Shown one piece after another: positions 1-26,756 of a stretch of 26,756 bases of DNA (position 1 is the first letter of the stretch; each line of letters starts with the position of its first letter). Where the stretch lies: positions 1 through 26,756 of IMG/VR virus record IMGVR_UViG_3300042988_000799; one strand, written 5' to 3'. The notes beneath the pieces are model-generated. The model was not told the origin of the DNA, searched no databases, and worked only from the letters and a program-made list of their open reading frames with translations. The stretch comes from a virus. The translations under genes and the position numbers were made by a program.

Positions 1-11
1 CTCGAATGAGA

Positions 12-38
12 GAAAACACCCCCAGGGGGGTCGTTTTC
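12..38. terminator. Terminator-like hairpin upstream of the terminase operon
   Basis: GAAAACA (12-18) pairs with T31 and GTTTTC (33-38), and CCCC (19-22) pairs with GGGG (27-30). The result is an 11-bp stem with one bulged C at 32 and a 4-nt loop. The A-tract on the left arm and T-tract on the right arm are typical of an intrinsic terminator that could work in either direction. It would insulate the terminase operon from upstream transcription. It could instead be part of a packaging site, because it lies just before the small terminase gene. Confidence 0.5.
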
Positions 39-70
39 CGAGTTCCGCCAGGTCGGTTCCCCCAGAGGGG

Positions 71-99
71 TTGCAAGGCACATAGTGAAGTGCTAGTAT
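71..99 (+). promoter_or_regulatory. Candidate promoter for the terminase operon
   Basis: TTGCAA (71-76, four of six matches to TTGACA) is followed after 17 nt by TAGTAT (94-99, four of six matches to TATAAT). TG at 91-92 gives an extended -10. Transcription would start near 106, just before the ribosome binding site AGGAAGG (108-114). The spacing is right, but each box is only a partial match. Confidence 0.45.
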
Positions 100-125
100 C
101 GGACTATAGGAAGGCGGTGGCTACG

Positions 126-824
126 GTGTCCCAAGGACGAAAGAAGGCTCCCCAAAAGAGGAAGAAATCGAAGAAACGGGTAAAACAGACCAAAACCGGT
201 CTGAACCAGGCGCATCCGGTCCTGATCGCCCCGGAACAGGTTGAAAGAGGCGCAGAAGCCACGGTTTCCGCGAATCGGGGGCGCAGCGCGGCCACTCTGG
301 CCGCCATCGTCGACGGCGGTCTGAAGAAGTTCTCCAGGACGGAGATCGAGTTCCGGCAGCGAGCGGAGGAGGCGATCCGCTCCAACTCCAAGGCGTATCT
401 GATGCATCCCGAGGTGCAGGAAGACCCCGTCGCCAATGCGAAGTTCGAGGAACTGTGCCTCCTCTACTCGAACAACCCCTATGTGGACCGGATGGACTCC
501 GACCTCATGAACCAGTACTGCCTCATGTGGCGGGACATGGCGAAGCTGCGCAAGCTGCAGACGGGCATCGAGGACTATGCGGAGATGGCGTCGAACGGTC
601 TGTTGCTCGTCGGGCAGGACCAGCGCCCTCTGGAGCCGGATGAGTTCAACACGTTCCTCGAGCGAGCGAACGACATCGGCAAGTCCATCCGCGCCCTCCG
701 GCAGCAGATGGTCCCGATCATGGACCGGTTGCTGCTGACGCCGACGAGCCGGATCAAGGCGGTTCCGAAGACGCCGCCGAAGGAGAAGCCGAAAATCGCG
801 GATGGGGAGGATCTGTTCACATGA
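126..824 (+). CDS. Terminase small subunit (P27-like)
   Basis: Probable small terminase subunit, which recognises phage DNA and recruits the large subunit for packaging. The first 60 residues are Lys/Arg-rich. The middle is helical with a WRDMAKLRKLQ stretch. The end has LLLTPTSRIKAVPK, which resembles the conserved 'LGLTP-SR' tail of P27-family small terminases. The predicted length is 232 aa from a GTG at 126 behind AGGAAGG (108-114). The frame stays open back to position 6, but that extension crosses the terminator hairpin and promoter and reads as non-native sequence. The last bases overlap the next gene (ATGA). The large subunit lies 2 kb downstream instead of directly next door. Assignment rests on the C-terminal motif and position, so the family is likely but not certain. 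Confidence 0.75.
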   Translation: MSQGRKKAPQKRKKSKKRVKQTKTGLNQAHPVLIAPEQVERGAEATVSANRGRSAATLAAIVDGGLKKFSRTEIEFRQRAEEAIRSNSKAYLMHPEVQEDPVANAKFEELCLLYSNNPYVDRMDSDLMNQYCLMWRDMAKLRKLQTGIEDYAEMASNGLLLVGQDQRPLEPDEFNTFLERANDIGKSIRALRQQMVPIMDRLLLTPTSRIKAVPKTPPKEKPKIADGEDLFT

Positions 825-985
825 CAACGGAACAAGCCAAAGACCTCGAACAAAAGATGCGCAGTTTCGCATCGGCGGTACTTCAAGGGAAACACCCGAT
901 TTATATCGATCGCCAAGCCACTCCGGAGCAGACGCTGGTGCTTCCGGAGATTCTCAAGTTGTTGTTCCCTGGAAGTGTGGGGTGA
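821..985 (+). CDS. Small hypothetical protein (54 aa)
   Basis: This short gene starts at an ATG that overlaps the terminase small-subunit stop by four bases (ATGA). GGGGAGG (804-810) sits 10 nt upstream, so translation is probably coupled. The product begins MTTEQAKDLEQKMRSF, is polar and helical, and ends in a hydrophobic stretch (ILKLLFPG). I do not recognise a domain. It is the first of seven small genes between the two terminase genes. Its opening sequence catgacaacg is repeated at the start of the next gene. Coding status is supported by the overlap, the ribosome binding site and tight packing. Confidence 0.65.
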   Translation: MTTEQAKDLEQKMRSFASAVLQGKHPIYIDRQATPEQTLVLPEILKLLFPGSVG

Positions 986-992
986 AGAAGAC

Positions 993-1367
993 ATGACAAC
1001 GATTCACAGGGTGGTTCTTTCCTACGACATCAGAGACGCGACCTGCGAGGTCAAGGTGGAGAAGATCGAGGTTCGCGAGACGCCGGCCATGTACATCTGG
1101 GAGCCGTCCAGCTACAACTTGCGCCGGCTCACCCGTGCCATGGTCGAAGAGGCCGTGATCGAGTCCATGATATCCGAGGCGGGGTGGTACAAGGGCTGCG
1201 GGACCTGGAGGGCATACTGCCTACCGAATGACACCGAGAAGGTCGTTGCCCAGATGAAGCAGAAGGCGCTTCTGTTGGTGACCACCGGCCTCCAGTATGC
1301 GCAGAAGGCGTACGACCTCGTTTTGGAGAAGCTTGATCCCTGCGGACTGGTGGTGTATGAGTCATGA
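993..1367 (+). CDS. Hypothetical protein (124 aa)
   Basis: The protein is unrecognised. The start is the ATG at 993, seven bases after the previous stop, behind a weak purine-rich site (GAAGAAG). The N-terminal part alternates charged and hydrophobic residues as in beta strands (VVLSYDIRD, EVKVEKIEV). The second half is helical and ends in VVYES. The protein has four cysteines but no CxxC pair. The stop overlaps the next ATG by four bases. The frame can be extended slightly upstream to 975, but that would overlap the previous gene without a better ribosome binding site. Confidence 0.7.
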   Translation: MTTIHRVVLSYDIRDATCEVKVEKIEVRETPAMYIWEPSSYNLRRLTRAMVEEAVIESMISEAGWYKGCGTWRAYCLPNDTEKVVAQMKQKALLLVTTGLQYAQKAYDLVLEKLDPCGLVVYES

Positions 1368-1579
1368 AGACGAAGACGGTCATCACCTCGACTCCCGAGC
1401 TGGAGTATGAGTATACCTTCAAGAACTCAAGGATCCGAAACTGCCGTATGTGTCCATTCGGTTCTCGTGATCCGATGTCATGGATCACGCAGACGGTCAA
1501 TTGCGACCGTCTGGACCGGTCCACGCGCGAGACGCGCCGCCGACCGAGTTGGTGTCCGATCGTGGAGGTGAAGAAATGA
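1364..1579 (+). CDS. Small four-cysteine protein, putative zinc binding (71 aa)
   Basis: A small basic protein with cysteines at about residues 27, 30, 47 and 64, arranged as RNCRMCPF, NCDRL and PSWCPI. This C-x2-C plus two later cysteines, with the ending R-P-x-WCPI, resembles small phage proteins of unknown function that I recall from Gram-positive phages. The spacing fits one structural zinc site, which is inference. Both ends are coupled: the ATG overlaps the previous stop, and its own stop overlaps the next ATG. No enzymatic function can be assigned. Confidence 0.7.
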   Translation: MKTKTVITSTPELEYEYTFKNSRIRNCRMCPFGSRDPMSWITQTVNCDRLDRSTRETRRRPSWCPIVEVKK

Positions 1580-2001
1580 GCAGGATGGAACTCAAGGACG
1601 CGATCGACGGGATGATGGTAGGCGTTGAGATATGCGCAAGTCTGAATAGTCCGACGCTCAACAAGGCGGCGAAAATGGTCATCGAAGCCGCGAAGCAATG
1701 GGATGATCAATGGCTGCCGGCCATCAAGCCGGGGGACAAGGTCTACTGGCTGCACGGGCTGAAGATCTACCGAGGCACGGTGGTCCGGTACTCGTGGTGC
1801 GAGGGGCAGGGCGCGATGTATCTGGAGCTGAACGCGCCGACCTTCCGAGTCAACCGCACTCCGACGGTCCACTACACGAGCTGCTACAGGAACCGGTCCG
1901 CGGCCGAGGAGTACGTCGAGTATCTCAAGAAGCAGGGGAAGACCTGGCCGATGCATTGCGACACCTGCAAGTTGAACGAGATGCGGAAGGAGAAGACATG
2001 A
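1576..2001 (+). CDS. Hypothetical protein with SH3-like stretch and CxxC tail (141 aa)
   Basis: The start is the ATG at 1576, overlapping the previous stop, with GGAGG about 8 nt upstream (1564-1568). The first 45 residues are helical. Residues 51-72 (KPGDKVYWLHG...RGTVV) look like the first strands of a small SH3-like barrel, in which PGD-V is a common turn. The C-terminus has a CxxC pair (C128, C131) in HCDTC and ends EKT. I cannot name the family. The longer reading that starts near 1480 lies inside the previous gene and is not used. The last codons form the junction motif AAGGAGAAGACATGA shared with another gene boundary downstream. Confidence 0.7.
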   Translation: MSRMELKDAIDGMMVGVEICASLNSPTLNKAAKMVIEAAKQWDDQWLPAIKPGDKVYWLHGLKIYRGTVVRYSWCEGQGAMYLELNAPTFRVNRTPTVHYTSCYRNRSAAEEYVEYLKKQGKTWPMHCDTCKLNEMRKEKT

Positions 2002-2282
2002 GCGACAATCAGATGACCCTGCAACAAGCAATCAAGGTTGTAAAGAATATGACTGGCCCTGTAATGGGATCGCGATACTGTGACGAGTATAATTCTGCTC
2101 TAAATCTTGTCCTCTCTGCCGCAGAGAAGCAGATGGAGATAGAGGGATGGGCAAAGACGCCAAGTGGAATATGGAACGATTATACGGCGGCCGGATATGC
2201 CAACGCACAGTTTGACGTAATGCAAATTATAGAAGGGTCCGCCTATCGCAAGGCAAAGGCAAGGGAGGCGTCTAATGGCTGA
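1998..2282 (+). CDS. Hypothetical protein from AT-richer gene (94 aa)
   Basis: The start at 1998 overlaps the previous stop and is preceded by AAGGAG. The product begins MSDNQMTLQQAIKVV and is a mostly helical soluble protein with one cysteine. It is not recognised. Base use differs from the neighbours: codons such as aat, tat, att, gta and aaa are common, while almost all surrounding genes favour G or C in the third position. This suggests recent acquisition from a lower-GC source. The end overlaps the next gene by eight bases. Confidence 0.7.
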   Translation: MSDNQMTLQQAIKVVKNMTGPVMGSRYCDEYNSALNLVLSAAEKQMEIEGWAKTPSGIWNDYTAAGYANAQFDVMQIIEGSAYRKAKAREASNG

Positions 2283-2448
2283 GAAGGAACGGTGCGACTT
2301 CTGCGGAGAGCCACACAAATGGGTTTCGCTTGGGACGGCCTATCACGGCCCGTACTGCGAGGGGTGTTTGAGAATGTCCCGATTCTACGACCTGGAAGCG
2401 CTTCACGAGATTCGAGACCGCAAGCGCAAGGCGAAGGAGAAGACATGA
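2275..2448 (+). CDS. Small double-CxxC zinc-finger-like protein (57 aa)
   Basis: A short gene in a different frame from the long open frame that covers the same bases. The ATG at 2275 is preceded by GGGAGG (2263-2268), a good ribosome binding site. The product has two Cys pairs, C7-x2-C10 (RCDFCGE) and C28-x2-C31 (YCEGCLR), separated by 17 residues. This is the layout of a single four-cysteine zinc finger. A basic helix (RDRKRKAKEKT) follows. Such small treble-clef or ribbon proteins may bind nucleic acid or a protein partner. The stop overlaps the next ATG through the repeated junction AAGGAGAAGACATGA (2434-2448). Confidence 0.75.
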   Translation: MAEKERCDFCGEPHKWVSLGTAYHGPYCEGCLRMSRFYDLEALHEIRDRKRKAKEKT

Positions 2449-2591
2449 TCGGGAACGAGCAGGAGACTCCGAGGTCGTTCGTATTGGTGGTGTGGATCCT
2501 TTCGCTGGTGGGGCTGGGGACGCTGATCGTGGGCGCGGCGAAGCTGGGGGATCTGATCGGCGCGTTCATCCGCGGCCTGATCATCGGGTGA
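2445..2591 (+). CDS. Small single-pass membrane protein (48 aa)
   Basis: The start at 2445 overlaps the previous stop and uses AAGGAG (2434-2439). After about ten polar residues there is a strong hydrophobic segment (FVLVVWILSLVGLGTLIVGA), then a second weakly hydrophobic glycine-rich stretch to the end. It is probably a small inner-membrane peptide. It could be holin-like, but it lies far from the lysis cassette at 20705-22523, so this is only a possibility. The longer upstream reading from 2292 overlaps the zinc-finger gene in another frame and lacks a ribosome binding site. Confidence 0.6.
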   Translation: MIGNEQETPRSFVLVVWILSLVGLGTLIVGAAKLGDLIGAFIRGLIIG

Positions 2592-2601
2592 GGAGAGAGA
2601 A

Positions 2602-2829
2602 ATGAAAGAGCGGGAGCAGGATCCGGTTGATGAGATCATGGAGAAGGCCGAGAAGTGGGACGCGCTGGTGTGGCTAATCGGGCAGGATCTGCGGTGGTTC
2701 GTTTGGCTCCCACCCGAAGAGGGGAAGCCTGTACAATGCTCAGTCTGCAAAGACAATAGCACAGAGCATAGCGTCCACAACATCGATGCCGTACTCGACG
2801 TCTTTCGCAAGGCGCAGGAGAAGCCATGA
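2602..2829 (+). CDS. Small protein with C-x2-C/H-x2-H arrangement (75 aa)
   Basis: A 75-residue protein starting at 2602 behind AGGAGAGAG. The first half is an acidic helix followed by a tryptophan-rich segment (LRWFVWLPP). It then has C46-x2-C49 and H56-x2-H59 in CSVCKDNSTEHSVH. That order of two cysteines and two histidines could hold a zinc ion, although the six-residue loop is short for a classical C2H2 finger. The C-terminus is helical. The stop overlaps the large terminase start (ATGA). The family is unknown. Confidence 0.7.
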   Translation: MKEREQDPVDEIMEKAEKWDALVWLIGQDLRWFVWLPPEEGKPVQCSVCKDNSTEHSVHNIDAVLDVFRKAQEKP

Positions 2830-4616
2830 AGCTGGATCCACGGCATCCGGTGCATGGGTACGCCGCAGCGCACCAGAACGATTCGGCGATGTGCCTGTCC
2901 GAGCGCCTCGCTTGCAAGCGCCATGTCCAGGACCTGTCGCGGATCGGGGACACCGACTTCCCCTATGTCTTCGATGACACGCGCATGGAGCGGATCTACG
3001 ACTGGTTCGAGAAGGTGTGCCAGCACACGCGCGGACCGCTCGTCGGGCAGCACATCCACCTCCTGGACTGGCAGAAGTTCCAGATGGGATGCATCGCCGG
3101 TTGGGTCCACAAGGACTCCGGCGCACGACGGTTCCGCAAGGTGTTCGATCTCCGCGCCCGTGGCAACGCGAAGTCATCGGAGGCGTCGGGTCTCGCGCTC
3201 TACGGGATGTGCGGGGATGTCTGGTATCCGCCGAACCACCCAGAGTCGAAGATATTCGAGTCCTCGCCGGAGGTCGAGTGCGCGGCCGTGGACCGTGGCC
3301 AGGCGAAGCGCGTCTGGGGAGATGCCAAGGAGATGGCGCTGCGCAGCCCGCTCATCCTCAAGCACCTCGATGTCAAGGAGACCTATGTCAAGCACAAGAC
3401 CCGGGGCGGGTGGATGAGGGCGTTGTCGCGGGACACGAAGAACAAGGACTCCGGCGCTCCGACGATGGTCATCCTGGACGAGTACCACGCGCACCCGACG
3501 TCCATCATCCACGACACCCTGTGGAACTCGTTCGGCAAGCGCACACAGGCGCTCATGGTCATCATCAGCACGGCCGGCGGGTCTGCGGACACCTCGCCCT
3601 GCTACCGCGAGTACGAGCTATGCAAGTTCATCCTCGAGGTCTGCGCCGGTGCGCAACAGGATCCGGCCGCGCGGCGGAAGTTCGACACCTACTTCGTCAT
3701 GATCCGAGAGCTGGAGAAGGATGACGATGTCCACGACGAGAGGATCTGGCTCAAGGCGAACCCGATCCTCCGCGTCGAGAACGCATACTCGAAGGAGCTG
3801 CGCGACCAGATCCGGTCGGAGCATGACGCCGCCTATTCCATGAACGACACGATCGCCATCCGCGAGTGGCTCACGAAGCGCACGAACCAATGGCAGCGCC
3901 TGTCCGACGCATACTACTTCGAGCGGTGCGTGGAGGCGTGGGAGGAGTGCCGCATGGAGCCGGAGGAGCTGGATGTCCTCATCCGTGGCACGGACGCGCT
4001 CGTGGGCATCGATTTGTCGAAGCGGATCGACTTGACCGCATCCGTGCTGGCCATCGCGCTCGAGGACGGCAGGATCGCCGTCCGCGCGTTCGGGTTCATG
4101 CCGAAGAACACCCTCGCCTACCACGAGAAGATGGACAAGATCCCGTACTCCGAGTGGGCCGCGCAGGGATGGCTCGTGGTCACGGACGGCGATGTCACCG
4201 ACTACGACTGGGTGCAGACATACACCGAGCGCGAGGCCGAGAGGTGTATGCTGCGCATCCTGGAGTGGTGCATGGATCCTGCGAACGCCGTGCCGTTCGC
4301 GGTGGCGATCACGCGCAAGTACGGGCAGGATGCGGCCATCGACGTCCGGCAGGGGACGATGAGCCTCAACGCCCCGACCAAGCTCTTCCGCGAACTGGTG
4401 CTGCAGCGCAGGGTGGTCCATGACGGGAACCCCCTGCTCCTGGCGCACCTCATGAACGCCGTGGAGTTCAAGGACGACAAGGAGAACATCCGGCTCACAA
4501 AGAAGACCAAGGACTCGGTGCAGCGCATCGACCTCGCGGCCGCGACGATGAACGCCATGGCTCGGATTCAAGTCCGGGACAAGGAAACCACGGACATGGA
4601 CGACCTCTTTTTCTGA
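2826..4616 (+). CDS. terL: Terminase large subunit (Terminase_1-like)
   Basis: This is the ATPase and nuclease of the DNA-packaging motor. It docks on the portal, drives DNA into the prohead and cuts concatemers. Visible motifs are a variant Walker A (ARGNAKSS, residues 111-118) and Walker B with catalytic glutamate (MVILDEYH, 214-221). A coupling motif (VIISTAGG, near 245-252) follows. The nuclease domain opens with GIDLSKRIDLTA (394-405), whose first aspartate is a likely metal ligand. The length of 596 aa is slightly above the usual 500-570. The start overlaps the previous gene and is preceded by AGGAGAAG. After the stop there is a regulatory region rather than a coupled portal gene. Confidence 0.97.
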   Translation: MKLDPRHPVHGYAAAHQNDSAMCLSERLACKRHVQDLSRIGDTDFPYVFDDTRMERIYDWFEKVCQHTRGPLVGQHIHLLDWQKFQMGCIAGWVHKDSGARRFRKVFDLRARGNAKSSEASGLALYGMCGDVWYPPNHPESKIFESSPEVECAAVDRGQAKRVWGDAKEMALRSPLILKHLDVKETYVKHKTRGGWMRALSRDTKNKDSGAPTMVILDEYHAHPTSIIHDTLWNSFGKRTQALMVIISTAGGSADTSPCYREYELCKFILEVCAGAQQDPAARRKFDTYFVMIRELEKDDDVHDERIWLKANPILRVENAYSKELRDQIRSEHDAAYSMNDTIAIREWLTKRTNQWQRLSDAYYFERCVEAWEECRMEPEELDVLIRGTDALVGIDLSKRIDLTASVLAIALEDGRIAVRAFGFMPKNTLAYHEKMDKIPYSEWAAQGWLVVTDGDVTDYDWVQTYTEREAERCMLRILEWCMDPANAVPFAVAITRKYGQDAAIDVRQGTMSLNAPTKLFRELVLQRRVVHDGNPLLLAHLMNAVEFKDDKENIRLTKKTKDSVQRIDLAAATMNAMARIQVRDKETTDMDDLFF

Positions 4617-4642
4617 CACTTGACAAACGCGCCTAGCCTGTA

Positions 4643-4668
4643 ATGACATCGTGATATAATGGTGTCAT
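4643..4668 (+). promoter_or_regulatory. Extended -10 promoter enclosed in a dyad (portal/head operon)
   Basis: TGA then TATAAT (4652-4660) is a perfect extended -10 in a GC-rich genome. It is flanked by inverted arms ATGACATC (4643-4650) and GGTGTCAT (4661-4668), matching at seven of eight positions. The arrangement resembles an operator overlapping a promoter, so a dimeric regulator could block or activate initiation. TTGACA occurs at 4620-4625, but 29 nt away, too far for a normal -35. The ribosome binding site AGGAGG (4671-4676) for the portal follows directly. Confidence 0.55.
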
Positions 4669-4685
4669 ATAGGAGGGCGTTGCCT

Positions 4686-6011
4686 GTGCAGTTGCGTATG
4701 TTCGGCAGAACCTTGAGCATCACAACCCGCGGCATCAATGCGGACGATTGGATGAAGGGTATCCAGTCGGCGAACGCATCCTCCAACGGCGTCATCACGA
4801 ACATCATCGATGCGTACGGCATCGCGACCGTCATGCGCTGCGTGGACCTCATCTCCAACTCCATGGGGTCGATCGGTCTGGACTTGTTCGAGAAGAAGGA
4901 AGACGGGATGTACCCCGCCGAGAACAACGACCTCTACGACCTGATCACCATCGCGCCGAACCCCGAGACCACCAGCTTCGACTTCATCTCGTTCTTGGTG
5001 GTGGAGATCCTGCTCACCAAGGCCGGAGTCATCTGGATCGAACGCGCCGCAAGTGGCAAGGTCGAGGCGCTCTGGAACCTTCCGTCCTGCTACTGCTCCG
5101 ACATCGTCCGCAACACCCAGACCGGAGAGCGGTACATCACCTTCTCCGGAGACTGGCGTGGGAAGTCCATCACGAAGACCATCTACGACAAGGACATGAT
5201 TTGGATTCCGGGCCGGCGCATCAGCAACCCCGACAAGGCGGTCGATGTCATCTCCCTCGCGGCGCGGTCGCTCGGCCTCACGAGCAAGCTGGACCTCTTC
5301 GCCACGAACTACTTCGACTCCGGCACGAACCCCTCCGGCATCCTCACCTACGACGGCAACCCCCGCGACGAGGTCTTCAAGGAGATGATCGCGCGGTTCC
5401 GGCAGGAGTACTCCGGCGCGAAGAACCAGAACAAGGTCATGGGCCTCACCAGCAAGATGAAGTTCGAGACCCTGGACAAGCGCGAACCGGACAAGGCCCA
5501 GGCGCTGGAGAGCCGGAAGTTCCAGGTCAGCGAGATCTGCCGGATCTTCGGCGTACCACCCCACCTCGTATTCGAGATGGAACGCGCGACCTACTCCAAC
5601 ACCGAGCAGCTCAATGTCGAGTTCGTCCAGTACGGGCTTGACCCCGTGTGCGCGAAGATCGAACAGGCGATGGCGCTCGGCCTCTTCTCGCGTCCGCAGC
5701 GTCGGAGGTTCAACCTCCGGTTCCAGACCATCCGGTTGATCCAAGGCGACATCAAGACGCGCGTGGAGTTCTACTCGCTGATGCGCAACGGCGGTATCAT
5801 GAATGCCGACGAGATCCGCGCTCGTGAGAACCTCCCGAGGATCAAGGGTGGAGACGGACAGGAATACCTGATCAACGGCGCGATGATCCCGCTGAAATAC
5901 GCGAAGGAGAACCGCCCGAAGAACTCATTACCGCAGAAAGGAGGTGCGCCCAATGGAGATCCTAACGGAAAACAAGACCCGAAGCCAGATCCCGCCGCCC
6001 CAGCAAAGTGA
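4686..6011 (+). CDS. Portal protein (HK97 family)
   Basis: The dodecameric portal ring at one head vertex is the channel for DNA and the docking site for terminase and connectors. The sequence is typical of HK97-type portals. It has an early helix MRCVDLISNSMGSIGLDLFEK, then LLTKAGVIWIE, the conserved stretch around TNYFDSGTNPSGIL, and a C-terminal half with EICRIFGVPPHL and the NTEQLNVEFVQYGLDPVCAKIEQ-type helix. The length is about 441 aa. I place the start at GTG 4686, nine bases after AGGAGG (4671-4676). An in-frame ATG at 4659 lies upstream of that site and inside the promoter dyad. The last 59 bases overlap the protease gene in another frame. Confidence 0.97.
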   Translation: MQLRMFGRTLSITTRGINADDWMKGIQSANASSNGVITNIIDAYGIATVMRCVDLISNSMGSIGLDLFEKKEDGMYPAENNDLYDLITIAPNPETTSFDFISFLVVEILLTKAGVIWIERAASGKVEALWNLPSCYCSDIVRNTQTGERYITFSGDWRGKSITKTIYDKDMIWIPGRRISNPDKAVDVISLAARSLGLTSKLDLFATNYFDSGTNPSGILTYDGNPRDEVFKEMIARFRQEYSGAKNQNKVMGLTSKMKFETLDKREPDKAQALESRKFQVSEICRIFGVPPHLVFEMERATYSNTEQLNVEFVQYGLDPVCAKIEQAMALGLFSRPQRRRFNLRFQTIRLIQGDIKTRVEFYSLMRNGGIMNADEIRARENLPRIKGGDGQEYLINGAMIPLKYAKENRPKNSLPQKGGAPNGDPNGKQDPKPDPAAPAK

Positions 6012-15538: not shown

Positions 15539-17842
15539 ATGGCATACTCGGTCAAGTTCCTCGAGAAGGCAACGAACGACGCCAACGACTACGGTACCGG
15601 GGCGTTCTTCAACCAGTTCGAGTCGGAATCCGCGGGGTATACCTCGACGAACTGCTCGATTGTGTTGTCGAACCATGTCTGGACCATGACCGGGAACGCC
15701 GCCACGACCTCGATGAACTGGAAGTATGTCACAACGAACGCCTACGCCCTCAACAAGATTGTCTTCTTCCGCGCGAGAGTGACCATCACCAAGGTCGGCG
15801 CGACGATGACGGCGATCACCCTCACCTGCAATGGTTCTACTTCTGGGTCGGTAAGCGTCAAGTCGCAGTCCAACCCTGCGGTGGGAACGACCTATGACCT
15901 CTACGGTCGAGCCACCCTCACGGGGCTTGTCGGGAATCTCGTGTGGATCATCACGGTTACCGACGATGTGACTACGAATACCGTCACCGCGACCATACAG
16001 GACTGGGTCGCGTTCGATCTCACGACGCAGCAGGGAGCCGGTTGGGAGTCGTCCGAGGCGGACTGGTACACCTGGCTCGTCTTCCGTATGCGGGGATGGA
16101 CCTGGACGGACTGGTACGACATGGCGTGGTTCAAGGGTGGAGTCGGGGACGGGTCCGACCCGTTCTTCCGGTATTGTCGCGCGACCGCGCATGGGCTTGC
16201 GACCTACGACATGGTCGGGCAGACCGGAGACCTTGCGTTCGGACAGGTCACTCGGATCGATGCGAACTGGTTCGCGGTCGGGACAGGCTATCCGATGTTC
16301 CTCGGCAGCGCGACTTTCACCCCCTACAAGGCGACCGACCGGACCTCGAAGATCGCCAAGGGGACTCTGAAGTGCAACCTGCGCAGCGACATGGAGGCGT
16401 ATGTCACCTTCGACTGCTACGGCGATTCCACATGGAGACCCCGGCTTGGACACACGGTCCAGCTCTGGGACGGGACGACCCTACTCTATGTCGGGAAGAT
16501 CGAGTCCATCGACACGACCCCCTTGGCCCCCAACGCCAGGTGGTTGTGTTCGGTCACGATGAAGTCGCTCACCTCGCTGATCAACCGGATCCTGCTGGAC
16601 ACTTCCGACTCCGGCTCCCTCGACTTCCAGAGCAGCAAGGCCGCGGTCTTCCAATGCTTCTGGTTCAACAGCTACCTCCACGGTATGGGGATCACATGGG
16701 GCATCGTGGACGACGGGCAGACCGACATCGGGGAGTTCGGGGACAATATGTACGGCATGACGGATGTCATGAACTCCCTCGCCAAGCAAGCGGGGAAGGT
16801 CTGGTATATCGACTCCGAGCGCAGACTCAACTTCCGCGACCCGCTCATGGCGGTCTCTGCGGCCGCCCACGCGCTGGTGGATGGCAACGGATACCTCGAG
16901 TCCAGACCCGGCTCGTACTCGAACGTGAAGTACCTCGAGCAGACCAGCGGGTATGTGTCGGACATCCTGATCTGCGGCGGCGTGGGTGACGATGGGTACA
17001 GGGTATTCACCATCGCCGACAATCGCACCTCCGGGTTCACCCCGATCTCCTCCGATGAGGAGGCGAATATGCCGTACTACCAGGGCATCATCTCGGATGA
17101 CCTGTACAACGACTCGGTGACGGCGGATGCCGCCGCAGCGAAGTACCTCGCGGCGCAGGGGTATGCGGTTCCGTCCACGCTCACCTTCTCCAGTACCGAC
17201 ACCGACTGGCGGCCGAACACGAAGTTGTCCGTGCAGCTTGCCAATGTCGGGATCTCGTCGCTGACCTACTTCAACATCGACTCGGTCGAAATGACCGACA
17301 TCGACGGCTTGAACATGATCACCAACATCACGGCCACGCAGAGGAACTCCTCCAGCTTCGTCTCGGCTCCGGCGCAGGGGTCCACCCAGTACCTCTCGGA
17401 TGTTCAGCAGAAGGCGCAGGACTCCGTGGCTGCCGTTCACCAACAGGCAGGGGTCTTCAGCCCCACGCTTCGTGGCGGAACGACGGCGGGGACATGGGCG
17501 TATACCCTTCAGTACGGCGCGTTCCTCCGGTATCAGAACCTCGTCTGGATCACCATCTCGCTGAACGCATCCAGCATCGGTGGCGGCGCGGCCGGAGACC
17601 TGATCATCGGCGACCTTCCGTTCCCGTCCGTCGCGCAGAGAGCCAGCTTCTCCGTCGTGACGCAGCAGGTCGCATGGCCGGCAAGCTCAACGAATGCCGG
17701 AGCGCAGATCGTCGGAGCCGGAACCGATATCATCCTGTACGGCTTTTACAACAACGGATCCCTAAGCCGTATGCAGGTCTCTGGACTGACGGCTGGTGAT
17801 ATCATATATGTGACCGGATGCTACCAATGCACACCCAATTAA
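15539..17842 (+). CDS. Large tail tip/hub protein with C-terminal surface module
   Basis: This 767-aa gene follows the tape measure, where Dit and Tal hub genes usually lie. Residues 1-240 are beta-rich and Trp-rich, perhaps a Dit-like or carbohydrate-binding module. Residues 260-600 look like a hub (Tal/gp27-type) core: LKCNLRSDMEAYVTFDCYGD, LGHTVQLWDGTTLLYVGKIE and MNSLAKQAGKVWYIDSERRL. Residues 635-767 (VFSPTLRGGTTAGTWAYTLQ, then GAFLRYQNLVWITISL and IGDLPFP) match the common 'FTPTL-FGG...YT-Q-G-Y-RIGNLVW...GLPF' module at the C-terminus of many phage tail fibres. It may both plug the tube and contact the host. It has a strong GGAGGGG site. Confidence 0.7.
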   Translation: MAYSVKFLEKATNDANDYGTGAFFNQFESESAGYTSTNCSIVLSNHVWTMTGNAATTSMNWKYVTTNAYALNKIVFFRARVTITKVGATMTAITLTCNGSTSGSVSVKSQSNPAVGTTYDLYGRATLTGLVGNLVWIITVTDDVTTNTVTATIQDWVAFDLTTQQGAGWESSEADWYTWLVFRMRGWTWTDWYDMAWFKGGVGDGSDPFFRYCRATAHGLATYDMVGQTGDLAFGQVTRIDANWFAVGTGYPMFLGSATFTPYKATDRTSKIAKGTLKCNLRSDMEAYVTFDCYGDSTWRPRLGHTVQLWDGTTLLYVGKIESIDTTPLAPNARWLCSVTMKSLTSLINRILLDTSDSGSLDFQSSKAAVFQCFWFNSYLHGMGITWGIVDDGQTDIGEFGDNMYGMTDVMNSLAKQAGKVWYIDSERRLNFRDPLMAVSAAAHALVDGNGYLESRPGSYSNVKYLEQTSGYVSDILICGGVGDDGYRVFTIADNRTSGFTPISSDEEANMPYYQGIISDDLYNDSVTADAAAAKYLAAQGYAVPSTLTFSSTDTDWRPNTKLSVQLANVGISSLTYFNIDSVEMTDIDGLNMITNITATQRNSSSFVSAPAQGSTQYLSDVQQKAQDSVAAVHQQAGVFSPTLRGGTTAGTWAYTLQYGAFLRYQNLVWITISLNASSIGGGAAGDLIIGDLPFPSVAQRASFSVVTQQVAWPASSTNAGAQIVGAGTDIILYGFYNNGSLSRMQVSGLTAGDIIYVTGCYQCTPN

Positions 17843-18347: not shown

Positions 18348-19250
18348 ATGGCACTTCTAGCTGGCGTCAACTACGACCCTGCAAGCGCCGTGTCGAAGGC
18401 TACCTCGTCGCGCCTTGCGATGACCGCCTTCGACACGACCAACCTGCGCCTGTCCTTCACGGTCCCACCGAACGGGAAGGTGATGGTCCGGCTTCGGTGT
18501 ACGCTTCTCGGCGCGACCACGTTCCCTGCTATTCTGCTCGGGGTGCTGCAAAGCACCACCGTCATCGCTCGAATCGCACCTGTCGGCGCGCTGCTCGGGA
18601 CCGCTCTGGCGACCACGCGCGTGACGCAGGAGGCACTGTTCACCATAGGAGGACTGACCCCGGGCGCGAGTCTGACATGGGACGCCGCCTATGGCGTGGA
18701 GATCCTGCTGGCGTCCACGAACATCAAGTACGGTGGCCCTAATACGACGAGCGGCGCTGATGCCTGGGGCGGGATCCAGTTCGAGGTCTGGGAAGCGACG
18801 GGGCTGCTCGGGACCATCCTGTACGACCCCAGCACCCGCGCATCGCTGTCCTGCGCGTCGCTTCTGGCGATGACTGCGATGGACACCACGAACCTCCGGA
18901 TCACCTTCACGGCGCCCGCGTCGGGGAAAGTCCTGATCCGAATGAAAGGCCAGCTCCACGGCGCAACGACCTTCTCCCAGATTCTGTTCGGAGTCCTCGA
19001 AGGCTCGACGATCCGCGCCCGGACTCAACCGCTTGGAGGATTGAGGTCCACGGCGGTCGCCACGGCCTTGCTGACGCAGGAGGGGCAAGCGGTGGTCACC
19101 GGACTCACGCCTGGGAACTCCTACACGTTCGACGCGGCGTATGCGGTCCAGACCGCCGTCACGTCCTGCACCCTCAAGTATGGCGGGCCGAACAACACGA
19201 CCACAGACGATGCGGCGGGCGGATTTCTCTTCGAGATCTGGACGGCGTAG
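18348..19250 (+). CDS. Two-domain tail protein with internal duplication (300 aa)
   Basis: The protein consists of two 150-residue halves that align without gaps. Residues 9-150 and 159-300 start YDP and end E-W-A, with about 75 of 142 identical by hand count, including DTTNLR, HGATTF/LGATTF, GLTPG and KYGGPN. Each half is beta-rich with strands every 8-12 residues, like a jelly-roll or Ig-like fold that could form an oligomeric appendage. No Shine-Dalgarno sequence is visible before ATG 18348, and the previous stop is only three bases away, so translation probably reinitiates. It is probably an exposed tail tip or fibre component. No named family is recognised. Confidence 0.68.
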   Translation: MALLAGVNYDPASAVSKATSSRLAMTAFDTTNLRLSFTVPPNGKVMVRLRCTLLGATTFPAILLGVLQSTTVIARIAPVGALLGTALATTRVTQEALFTIGGLTPGASLTWDAAYGVEILLASTNIKYGGPNTTSGADAWGGIQFEVWEATGLLGTILYDPSTRASLSCASLLAMTAMDTTNLRITFTAPASGKVLIRMKGQLHGATTFSQILFGVLEGSTIRARTQPLGGLRSTAVATALLTQEGQAVVTGLTPGNSYTFDAAYAVQTAVTSCTLKYGGPNNTTTDDAAGGFLFEIWTA

Positions 19251-19253
19251 CCC

Positions 19254-20354
19254 ATGCCAGCGTCGCAGCTCGTAGTCCTCGCGAACCTCGCGAACAACGT
19301 GTCCGTCGTTGGCGGCGCTGGCAACGCATCGGCGGACGGCATCGCCGCGACGATTACGGCGCAACGGAACGTCACCGTCTCCGCAGGGGCGGGGTCGTCC
19401 TCATCGGCAGGTGTGACGGCCACCATCACGGTCGGCGCGTCTGCGGTCAATGTGACTGTCTCGGCGGGTGTCGGAACGGCGAGTTCCAACGGCGTAACGG
19501 CATCTCCTACGCCAACCCGGAACATCACAATCTCGGCATCGATCGGAACGGCGAGTTCCAACGGCGTGACGGCGACCACGACCGCGCAGCGGAATGTAAC
19601 GGTCTCCGCAGGATCCGGAACGGCATCGTCCATCGGTATGACGGCTACGGCTACCCCGACGAGGAATGTGTCCGTCGCGGCATCGATCGGGACGGCGAGC
19701 GCCAACGGTGTGACGACCACCACCACGCCAGGGACTGGCCGCTCTGTTTCCGCGGCCCCCGGGACCGCATCGGCCGATGGGGTGACGGCTACCGTTGCGG
19801 TGCAGCTCAATGCCTTGATTTCCGCAGGGGCCGGATTCGCCACTTCAGAAGGAGTCGCCGCAACGGTCTCGGCACAACGGAATGTGTCCGTCTCCGCGTC
19901 GGCAGCGGATGCGATGGCGACCGGAATGACTGCGACCACTTCGCCGGTGCGGAACATCAGCATCACGGGGTTCATCGCGACTGCGAACTCCGAGGGGGTC
20001 ACGGCGACCATAATCACAGTCAGTCTGGCGAACGTCACCGTCATCGCCGGATTCGCGAACTCGACCGCTTCCGGCATCACCGCACTCATCAACCGCCGCC
20101 CGTCGTTCCGGTCTCCCTACAGGCTGGCGCAGGACGATGGGATGTTGTCCGTTGGGAATGATGACCGTGCGAACCGGATGAACCCTTCCGACAGTGCATT
20201 GTCCGTTGGCAGCATTGACCGTGCGAACCGCATGGATACCGCTGATGGTATACTATCCATAGGAAACGATGACCTCGCGAACCGCATGGATACTGCCGAT
20301 GGCCGGCATGATGCCAGGGTGAGCGGGGGGAAGCTGGGGGTGAAACTAGGATGA
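19254..20354 (+). CDS. Repeat-rich tail fibre-like protein (366 aa)
   Basis: The body consists of about ten copies of a 24-residue repeat with consensus GTASSNGVTATTTAQRNVTV then SAG-, from about residue 23 to 279. It is Thr/Ser/Ala/Val-rich with regular strand spacing, like a beta-solenoid or triple-helical fibre shaft. A short linker leads to three copies of an 18-residue repeat (DGMLSVGNDDRANRMNPS type, residues 295-348) and a basic Gly-rich tail. It is probably a stalk or fibre exposed on the tail tip. There is no clear Shine-Dalgarno sequence before ATG 19254, three bases after the previous stop, so coupling is likely. The end overlaps the next gene. Confidence 0.7.
   Translation: MPASQLVVLANLANNVSVVGGAGNASADGIAATITAQRNVTVSAGAGSSSSAGVTATITVGASAVNVTVSAGVGTASSNGVTASPTPTRNITISASIGTASSNGVTATTTAQRNVTVSAGSGTASSIGMTATATPTRNVSVAASIGTASANGVTTTTTPGTGRSVSAAPGTASADGVTATVAVQLNALISAGAGFATSEGVAATVSAQRNVSVSASAADAMATGMTATTSPVRNISITGFIATANSEGVTATIITVSLANVTVIAGFANSTASGITALINRRPSFRSPYRLAQDDGMLSVGNDDRANRMNPSDSALSVGSIDRANRMDTADGILSIGNDDLANRMDTADGRHDARVSGGKLGVKLG
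19320..20090 (+). repeat. About ten 24-residue (72-bp) coding repeats
   Basis: Repeats of GTASSNGVTAT followed by T--RNVTVSAG occur through this segment, with occasional 23-27 residue variants. At DNA level ggaacggcgagttccaacgg occurs at 19471 and again at 19546. The number of copies may vary between relatives by unequal recombination. Confidence 0.75.
20136..20297 (+). repeat. Three tandem 18-residue (54-bp) coding repeats
   Basis: The encoded units are DGMLSVGNDDRANRMNPS, DSALSVGSIDRANRMDTA and DGILSIGNDDLANRMDTA. The fourth unit begins DG but then diverges and is Gly/Lys-rich. The shared core is LS-G--D-ANRM. The units are exactly 54 bp with no indels. Confidence 0.85.
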
Positions 20355-25324: not shown

Positions 25325-25663
25325 ATGGCGACGATGATTCCTCCGGTCACGCCTCCGGGCCGGCGCATGGTCAAGTACGAGCGGACGAACTGCGCGAACT
25401 GCGGGGCGGCCCTCGTGGACCGGAAGTGTCCGTTCTGCGGAACGCAATGGGTTCCCGTCGGGTTCCAGGTCGGGGAGCATGGCTTCGTGAAGAGCTCCAC
25501 CGTGAGGTTCTGCTCGAACCCTCTGGAGGTGACTTCCTTCGGGAGGGCCTACCGGCAGTTCACCCCTGCTCCCATGGAGTGCGAGGTGTCGCTTGAAATC
25601 GTCGGTCTGACCTCGGAAGAGGCCACGAGGATATGGGTCGCAATCAGAGACGCGATGCAGTAG
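25325..25663 (+). CDS. Zinc-ribbon protein (112 aa)
   Basis: After a Pro-rich start, residues 23-38 read CANCGAALVDRKCPFCG, a four-cysteine zinc ribbon (C23-x2-C26 and C35-x2-C38). The remainder has a strand-rich part ending LEIVGLTSEEATRIWVAIRD. The ribbon at the N-terminus resembles small zinc ribbons of transcription or DNA-binding proteins. Its place four bases after the helicase stop suggests a functional link. The ribosome binding site is AAAGGATAGGA. The function is unknown. Confidence 0.75.
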   Translation: MATMIPPVTPPGRRMVKYERTNCANCGAALVDRKCPFCGTQWVPVGFQVGEHGFVKSSTVRFCSNPLEVTSFGRAYRQFTPAPMECEVSLEIVGLTSEEATRIWVAIRDAMQ

Positions 25664-26256: not shown

Positions 26257-26756
26257 ATGCCAGCAAACGACGAGAGAAGCATCATGGACATGGTCGCGGA
26301 GACGCAGACCAAGGAGCTCGCCACCAAGGCGACCTTCAGCGACCAGGAGCTGCACGAGGCGATGACCGAGGAGATGAACGGCCTCGGGCAGATCCAGCTC
26401 CCGCGCATCAAGATCCCCGCCGGTGGGACCATCGTGTTCGAGGTTCCGACCGACGACCCGAACGAGCCGATCACCGTCAAGGAAGTCCGCGGCGTGGTCA
26501 TCGGCCACCACCCGGTCAACCGCCTGTACCTCAAGTCGGTCGAGGAGCAGACCGAGGCGAACGCCGCGCCGGACTGCTACTCGCAGGACGGAGTCACCGG
26601 CAGCGCCACCTATGACCCCGAACTCGGGTACGGCGGTCTCTGCGAGAAATGCCCGATGAACGAGTTCGGATCCGGCAGGAACGGCTCCGGCAAGATGTGC
26701 AGCAACCGCCACCGCCTCCTGTTCATGATGGACGGCGGACAGGGGTTCCCCTTCGT
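26257..26756 (+). CDS. Four-cysteine early phage protein, partial at window end
   Basis: ATG 26257 follows AGAAAGGCAGG. The reading frame is still open at the end of the window, with 166 residues visible. After a charged helical start it has LPRIKIPAGGTIVFEVPTDD, then KEVRGVVIGHHPVNRLYLK, and cysteines at 107, 129, 132 and 148. The latter sit in LCEKCPMNEFGSGRNGSGKM and CSNRHRLLFM. I recall this 'CE-CP-N-FGSG---GK-C-N' pattern from a phage family found with DNA-replication genes, of unknown role. Four cysteines could bind zinc or an iron-sulfur cluster, but this is not shown. The C-terminus is missing. Confidence 0.75.
   Translation, partial: MPANDERSIMDMVAETQTKELATKATFSDQELHEAMTEEMNGLGQIQLPRIKIPAGGTIVFEVPTDDPNEPITVKEVRGVVIGHHPVNRLYLKSVEEQTEANAAPDCYSQDGVTGSATYDPELGYGGLCEKCPMNEFGSGRNGSGKMCSNRHRLLFMMDGGQGFPF

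Follow-up and report, generated by a model that had tools for sequence, protein, structure and literature searches.

In the window analysed here, the complete 26,756 bases of the IMG/VR record IMGVR_UViG_3300042988_000799, the terminase genes TerS and TerL are separated by eight tandem small open reading frames (ORFs) that lie on one strand at 821-2829. This stretch is probably a cassette of small accessory genes, assembled by horizontal transfer, that came between the terminase genes of an HK97-type tailed phage: the ORFs overlap in tandem on one strand, occupy a rare position and are absent from relatives. Taken as a whole, the window appears to bring together types of feature that are already known, in an uncommon location. 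A cassette of this nature would mean that even TerS and TerL, a closely kept pair, can accept a block of small genes of ~2 kb between them.

Terminase borders and the eight small genes

No end repeats are reported for the record, so it may be a fragment, and the contig starts only 125 bases 5′ of TerS. From the left end, the gene order is TerS, the eight small ORFs and TerL, after which the portal, protease, capsid and tail genes come in their usual succession. The left border of the insertion is TerS of the P27/Terminase_4 type (126-824, + strand). It is diverged, with only 8e-4 for Terminase_4 (Pfam PF05119) and ~1e-12 for the best single-sequence match; a profile built from relatives confirms its identity (5.5e-25). 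The right border is TerL (2826-4616, + strand), identified by TerL_nuclease (1.5e-47), TerL_ATPase (2e-16) and phrog_9 (7e-123). In the TerL tree, the window stands on a long branch within a group with Bacillota members, a placement that does not assign the host. One other short contig (UViG_3300047552_001013) contains identical DNA over a stretch that includes at least 2341 up to where TerL begins; it is a fragment either of this phage or of one almost identical to it.

All small genes, here named g2 to g9, are on the + strand. The first, g2 (821-985, 54 aa), overlaps the TerS stop as ATGA, is in the ORF list and selected by gene calling, has a weak codon score and is the weakest of the set; without it, seven genes are left. 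It is followed by g3 (993-1367, 124 aa), with a good codon score and four scattered cysteines that form no CxxC, by g4 (1364-1579, 71 aa), with cysteines at 27, 30, 47 and 64 (C27-x2-C30 plus two single Cys), and by g5 (1576-2001, 141 aa), with a central KPGDKVYW and one CxxC only, the C-terminal C128-x2-C131. The AT-richest gene is g6 (1998-2282, 94 aa; 49% GC, GC3 0.52). In g7 (2275-2448, 57 aa) the pairs C7-x2-C10 and C28-x2-C31 give a putative zinc-ribbon-like layout. A single transmembrane stretch is predicted in g8 (2445-2591, 48 aa; mean hydropathy 2.54 over 19 residues), which has the best codon score of the set, and g9 (2602-2829, 75 aa) carries C46-x2-C49 and H56-x2-H59. An earlier sequence-only reading had described small genes splitting the terminase pair, Cys/His motifs in four of them (g4, g5, g7 and g9) and a small membrane protein among them (g8). 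The ORFs, the identities of TerS and TerL, the motif residues and the strongly hydrophobic stretch were all confirmed. The ORFs listed in that reading for the cluster were right; its extent, given as 1364-2829, was too short, since the block starts at 821 and also includes 821-985 and 993-1367.

The start of each small ORF coincides with the end of the preceding one or lies a few bases away, mostly as ATGA. Within 101-2830 there are seven ATGA-linked pairs of ORFs of at least 45 codons, whereas 2000 sequences from a first-order Markov model contained 0.64 on average and never more than 4. When the three forward frames are compared, the codon score is highest in the annotated one for all eight ORFs, and a simple dynamic-programme gene calling selects all of them. 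In absolute terms the codon scores are weak for 821-985, 1364-1579, 1998-2282, 2275-2448 and 2602-2829. The low scores of g2, g6, g7 and g9 would fit the idea that some frames, 821-985 above all, are untranslated and that the Cys pairs are a chance output of GC-rich frames. Against this stand the in-frame score, the best of three throughout, and an ATGA chain and ribosome sites far above chance, and we regard the idea as highly improbable. The sequence-only reading had depended on these frames being translated; the ATGA chain beyond chance and the best-scoring annotated frames argue that they are real genes.

Position of the block and searches for homologues

A TerL family profile yielded 80 loci from viruses and 35 from genomes. 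Once TerS had been sought with an iterated profile, both genes were present in 98 non-redundant loci. TerS and TerL lie within 150 bases of each other or overlap in 96 of these. The two exceptions, the only loci with a long insert between TerS and TerL, are the window (1951 bases) and IMGVR_UViG_3300049483_000227 (L054; 1437 bases). The latter insert consists of one lysin-like gene (479-495 aa, at 543-1982) that encodes a GH25 domain; it is without small Cys-pair genes and has nothing in common with the block in the window. The split is thus real and rare, but not unique. Morons are recognised by being missing from the corresponding gene boundary of related phages, as is the case here with TerS against TerL in 96 of 98 loci, and by an own promoter and terminator. 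In a scan restricted to the sigma-70 type, no promoter-like site was found on the + strand of 1-5000, which fits expression by read-through, nor was a + strand terminator-like site found within the block.

Searches of Pfam, PHROGs, NCBIfam and PADLOC with all eight small proteins gave nothing significant. The sequence-only reading had likewise seen no recognised role in packaging for any of the genes. With six of the small proteins as queries, tblastn against 50,697 phage records produced matches at chance level only; a blastn search with the entire block produced none. No homologue was obtained for g3, g4, g6, g7 or g9. IMG/VR scans with g3, g4, g5 and g7 returned only the identical fragment, besides a match of just 21 residues (21-23) between g5 and a contig of 463 kb from a virus. 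The small proteins were absent from the terminase loci fetched for relatives. Searches of the complete records of 47 relatives, and of the 463-kb contig, gave no homologue of g4, g5, g6 or g7 in any relative; as a search without a positive control, this is weak evidence of absence.

Several candidate matches were discarded. The match of g5 to LR745208 (E 2) was judged to be chance after alignment; the matched stretch resembles what we take to be the tail of a DNA methyltransferase. The similarity of g5 to PDB entries of designed toroid proteins (3.8e-9) is a repeat artefact, as no single stretch passes and the targets are designed repeats. Assignment of g5 to a GDxVY...TxEEA type of phage protein was dropped, with one candidate in the gene calls of relatives and no profile support. 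For g4, a match in a Phascolarctobacterium genome (E 0.004) is interrupted by a stop codon, and a long frame resembling anthranilate synthase occupies the locus.

Insertion of genes among canonical head and packaging genes, as in the window, is known from Arthrobacter phages of cluster AL, which carry genes of unknown function there; in Laroye five lie between TerL and portal and eight between protease and capsid (PMC5513430). The cluster AL inserts are located at TerL-portal or later, whereas the block in the window lies between TerS and TerL, and as far as tested they have no gene in common.

Cysteine pairs in the small proteins

Among all proteins of at most 150 aa called in 101 related loci, 12% contain CxxC. 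The share for small genes 5′ of TerL is 17.6% (132/748, HNH proteins included) compared with 2.6% (12/459) for those 3′ of it. This shows that small Cys-pair proteins near the terminase genes are common in related phages. With four Cys-pair genes of eight, the window is somewhat above the local rate of 17.6% (binomial p = 0.037, before allowing for selection by the sequence-only reading), which counts against a loose cassette. With crude gene calling and loci that share ancestry and so lack independence, these figures serve as a rough guide only.

Two metal-ligand pairs per small domain are present in g7 (CxxC-x17-CxxC) and g9 (CxxC-x6-HxxH). Judged by residue spacing, g7 is the clearest candidate for a zinc-ribbon-like layout among the four Cys-pair proteins. 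Its AlphaFold2 single-sequence model contains two short strands and a helix (mean pLDDT 67.6), and comparison of this model with PDB folds gave no match with E below 3. Membership of g7 in the Lar restriction-alleviation family (PF14354) was rejected at 14.5 bits against the curated cut-off of 28.6. The corresponding model of g5 was unusable (mean pLDDT 45). The four proteins are mutually unlike. They are probably zinc-stabilised micro-domains, as far as their residue patterns can tell.

Many proteins of less than 100 aa with at least one CxxC occur in HF1-like haloviruses and have been read as zinc-finger interaction modules, with nucleic acid or a host protein as the usual guess for their targets (PMC7230728). 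The abundance of small CxxC proteins, likened here by description, is the shared trait; the haloviruses are archaeal and their CxxC proteins avoid the region from terL to the structural genes, unlike those in the window. The four Cys-pair proteins are probably independent of each other, each with zinc holding a tiny fold that would bind nucleic acid or a host protein. In this reading they belong to the dispensable early or middle class that is usual just upstream of TerS in these phages and are not components of the terminase.

Junction repeat and origin of the block

Five copies of AAGGAGAAGACATGA or a near copy of it are present in the window, all at junctions of the block, and none of 100 shuffles reached five. 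On the + strand these are GTGAAGAAGACATGA at 982-996, comprising SD and start, GAGGTGAAGAAATGA at 1565-1579, AAGGAGAAGACATGA at 1987-2001 and again at 2434-2448, and CAGGAGAAGCCATGA at 2815-2829, the start signal of TerL. The repeat joins a ribosome site, read in frame as Lys-Glu-Lys of the upstream gene, to the next start. The C-termini of g5 (MRKEKT), g7 (RKAKEKT) and g9 (RKAQEKP) are similar because this ribosome site is read in frame. Between g7 and g9 the likeness at the junction extends over 24 bases (92%), slightly longer than a ribosome site needs. Elsewhere, the repeat was found only in the identical fragment of the same phage and in an unrelated phage contig (L127), in which a gene likewise ends in AKEKT with an ATGA overlap. 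This suggests that a Lys-rich tail combined with a ribosome site arose convergently.

A comparable feature are the start-associated sequences (SAS) of cluster K mycobacteriophages, a short repeat with a ribosome-site-like core before several genes of unrelated families (PMC3203893). Like SAS, the repeat in the window is short and asymmetric and lies directly upstream of several unrelated genes. It differs from the SAS consensus GGGATAGGAGCCC, has only five copies and lies within the preceding coding sequence. An existing model has phage genomes recombining at short sequences that mark gene boundaries (PMC3233612). The five-fold junctions, with ribosome site and start in the tail of the preceding gene, suggest a route for adding genes with translation of TerL unbroken.

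The composition differs between the genes and, for some of them, from the phage core: GC3 is 0.52 in 1998-2282 compared with 0.85-0.92 in 1576-2001 and 2445-2591, and GC is lower than in the core for g2 (52%) and g6, while g3, g5 and g8 are core-like, a mixed picture in relation to morons, whose base composition is expected to be unlike that of the flanking genes. We propose assembly of the cassette gene by gene. The small genes would have been acquired horizontally and would now stand between TerS and TerL. Their transcription would be part of the terminase/head message, and ribosomes would re-initiate at the overlapping ATGA junctions, with the ribosome-binding site provided by the 3′ tail of the preceding gene.

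An origin by relocation would have left a variable zone of small genes in its usual place before TerL, with TerS moved or re-acquired upstream. Its appeal lies in the small CxxC genes of relatives, found mainly 5′ of TerL, and in the divergence of TerS described above; we nevertheless hold it to be unlikely, as the upstream zones of relatives contain no homologue of the small genes and the HNH gene typical of these zones is missing from the gap. The sequence-only reading had instead proposed a coordinated accessory function such as host takeover or packaging regulation; as weighed here, a set of zinc proteins would regulate packaging or late expression and would hence be kept in the terminase operon. 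The shared repeat could, in this alternative sense, mark one coordinated unit, and the tight coupling of all genes to each other and to TerL as well as the rare position would agree with it. However, none of the relatives of the terminase was found to carry the small genes, and the terminases of 96 relatives have no such genes between their subunits. The four Cys-pair proteins are unlike each other, the compositions are heterogeneous, and phages often show coupled genes as well as small CxxC genes. The proposed joint function in packaging or takeover is therefore not borne out, and we rate such a set as quite improbable. A set that regulated packaging would represent a novel type of terminase accessory; a packaging role of the small genes is conceivable, although no observation speaks for it. 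In a more specific and very doubtful version, a phage-specific set of zinc micro-proteins held at a fixed ratio with TerS and TerL by coupled restarts would control the packaging switch or host shut-off at the onset of packaging, and the junction repeat would be a recombination/translation module adding genes to the terminase operon. The accessory cassette remains our preferred reading.

Outside the block, three further places in the window were recorded. In the tail region, 15539-17842 and 18348-20354 encode proteins of 767, 300 and 366 aa without a PHROG or Pfam match. A small protein with a putative double zinc-ribbon-like layout is encoded at 25325-25663, downstream of the helicase gene (DZR 0.002, DUF1272 4e-4, both below cut-off). 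At 26258-26756, a frame cut by the contig end contains a CxxCP...C motif (GGLCEKCPMNEFGSGRNGSGKMCSNRHRLLFMMDG) and adjoins a helicase gene and a Pam3 gp33-like gene.
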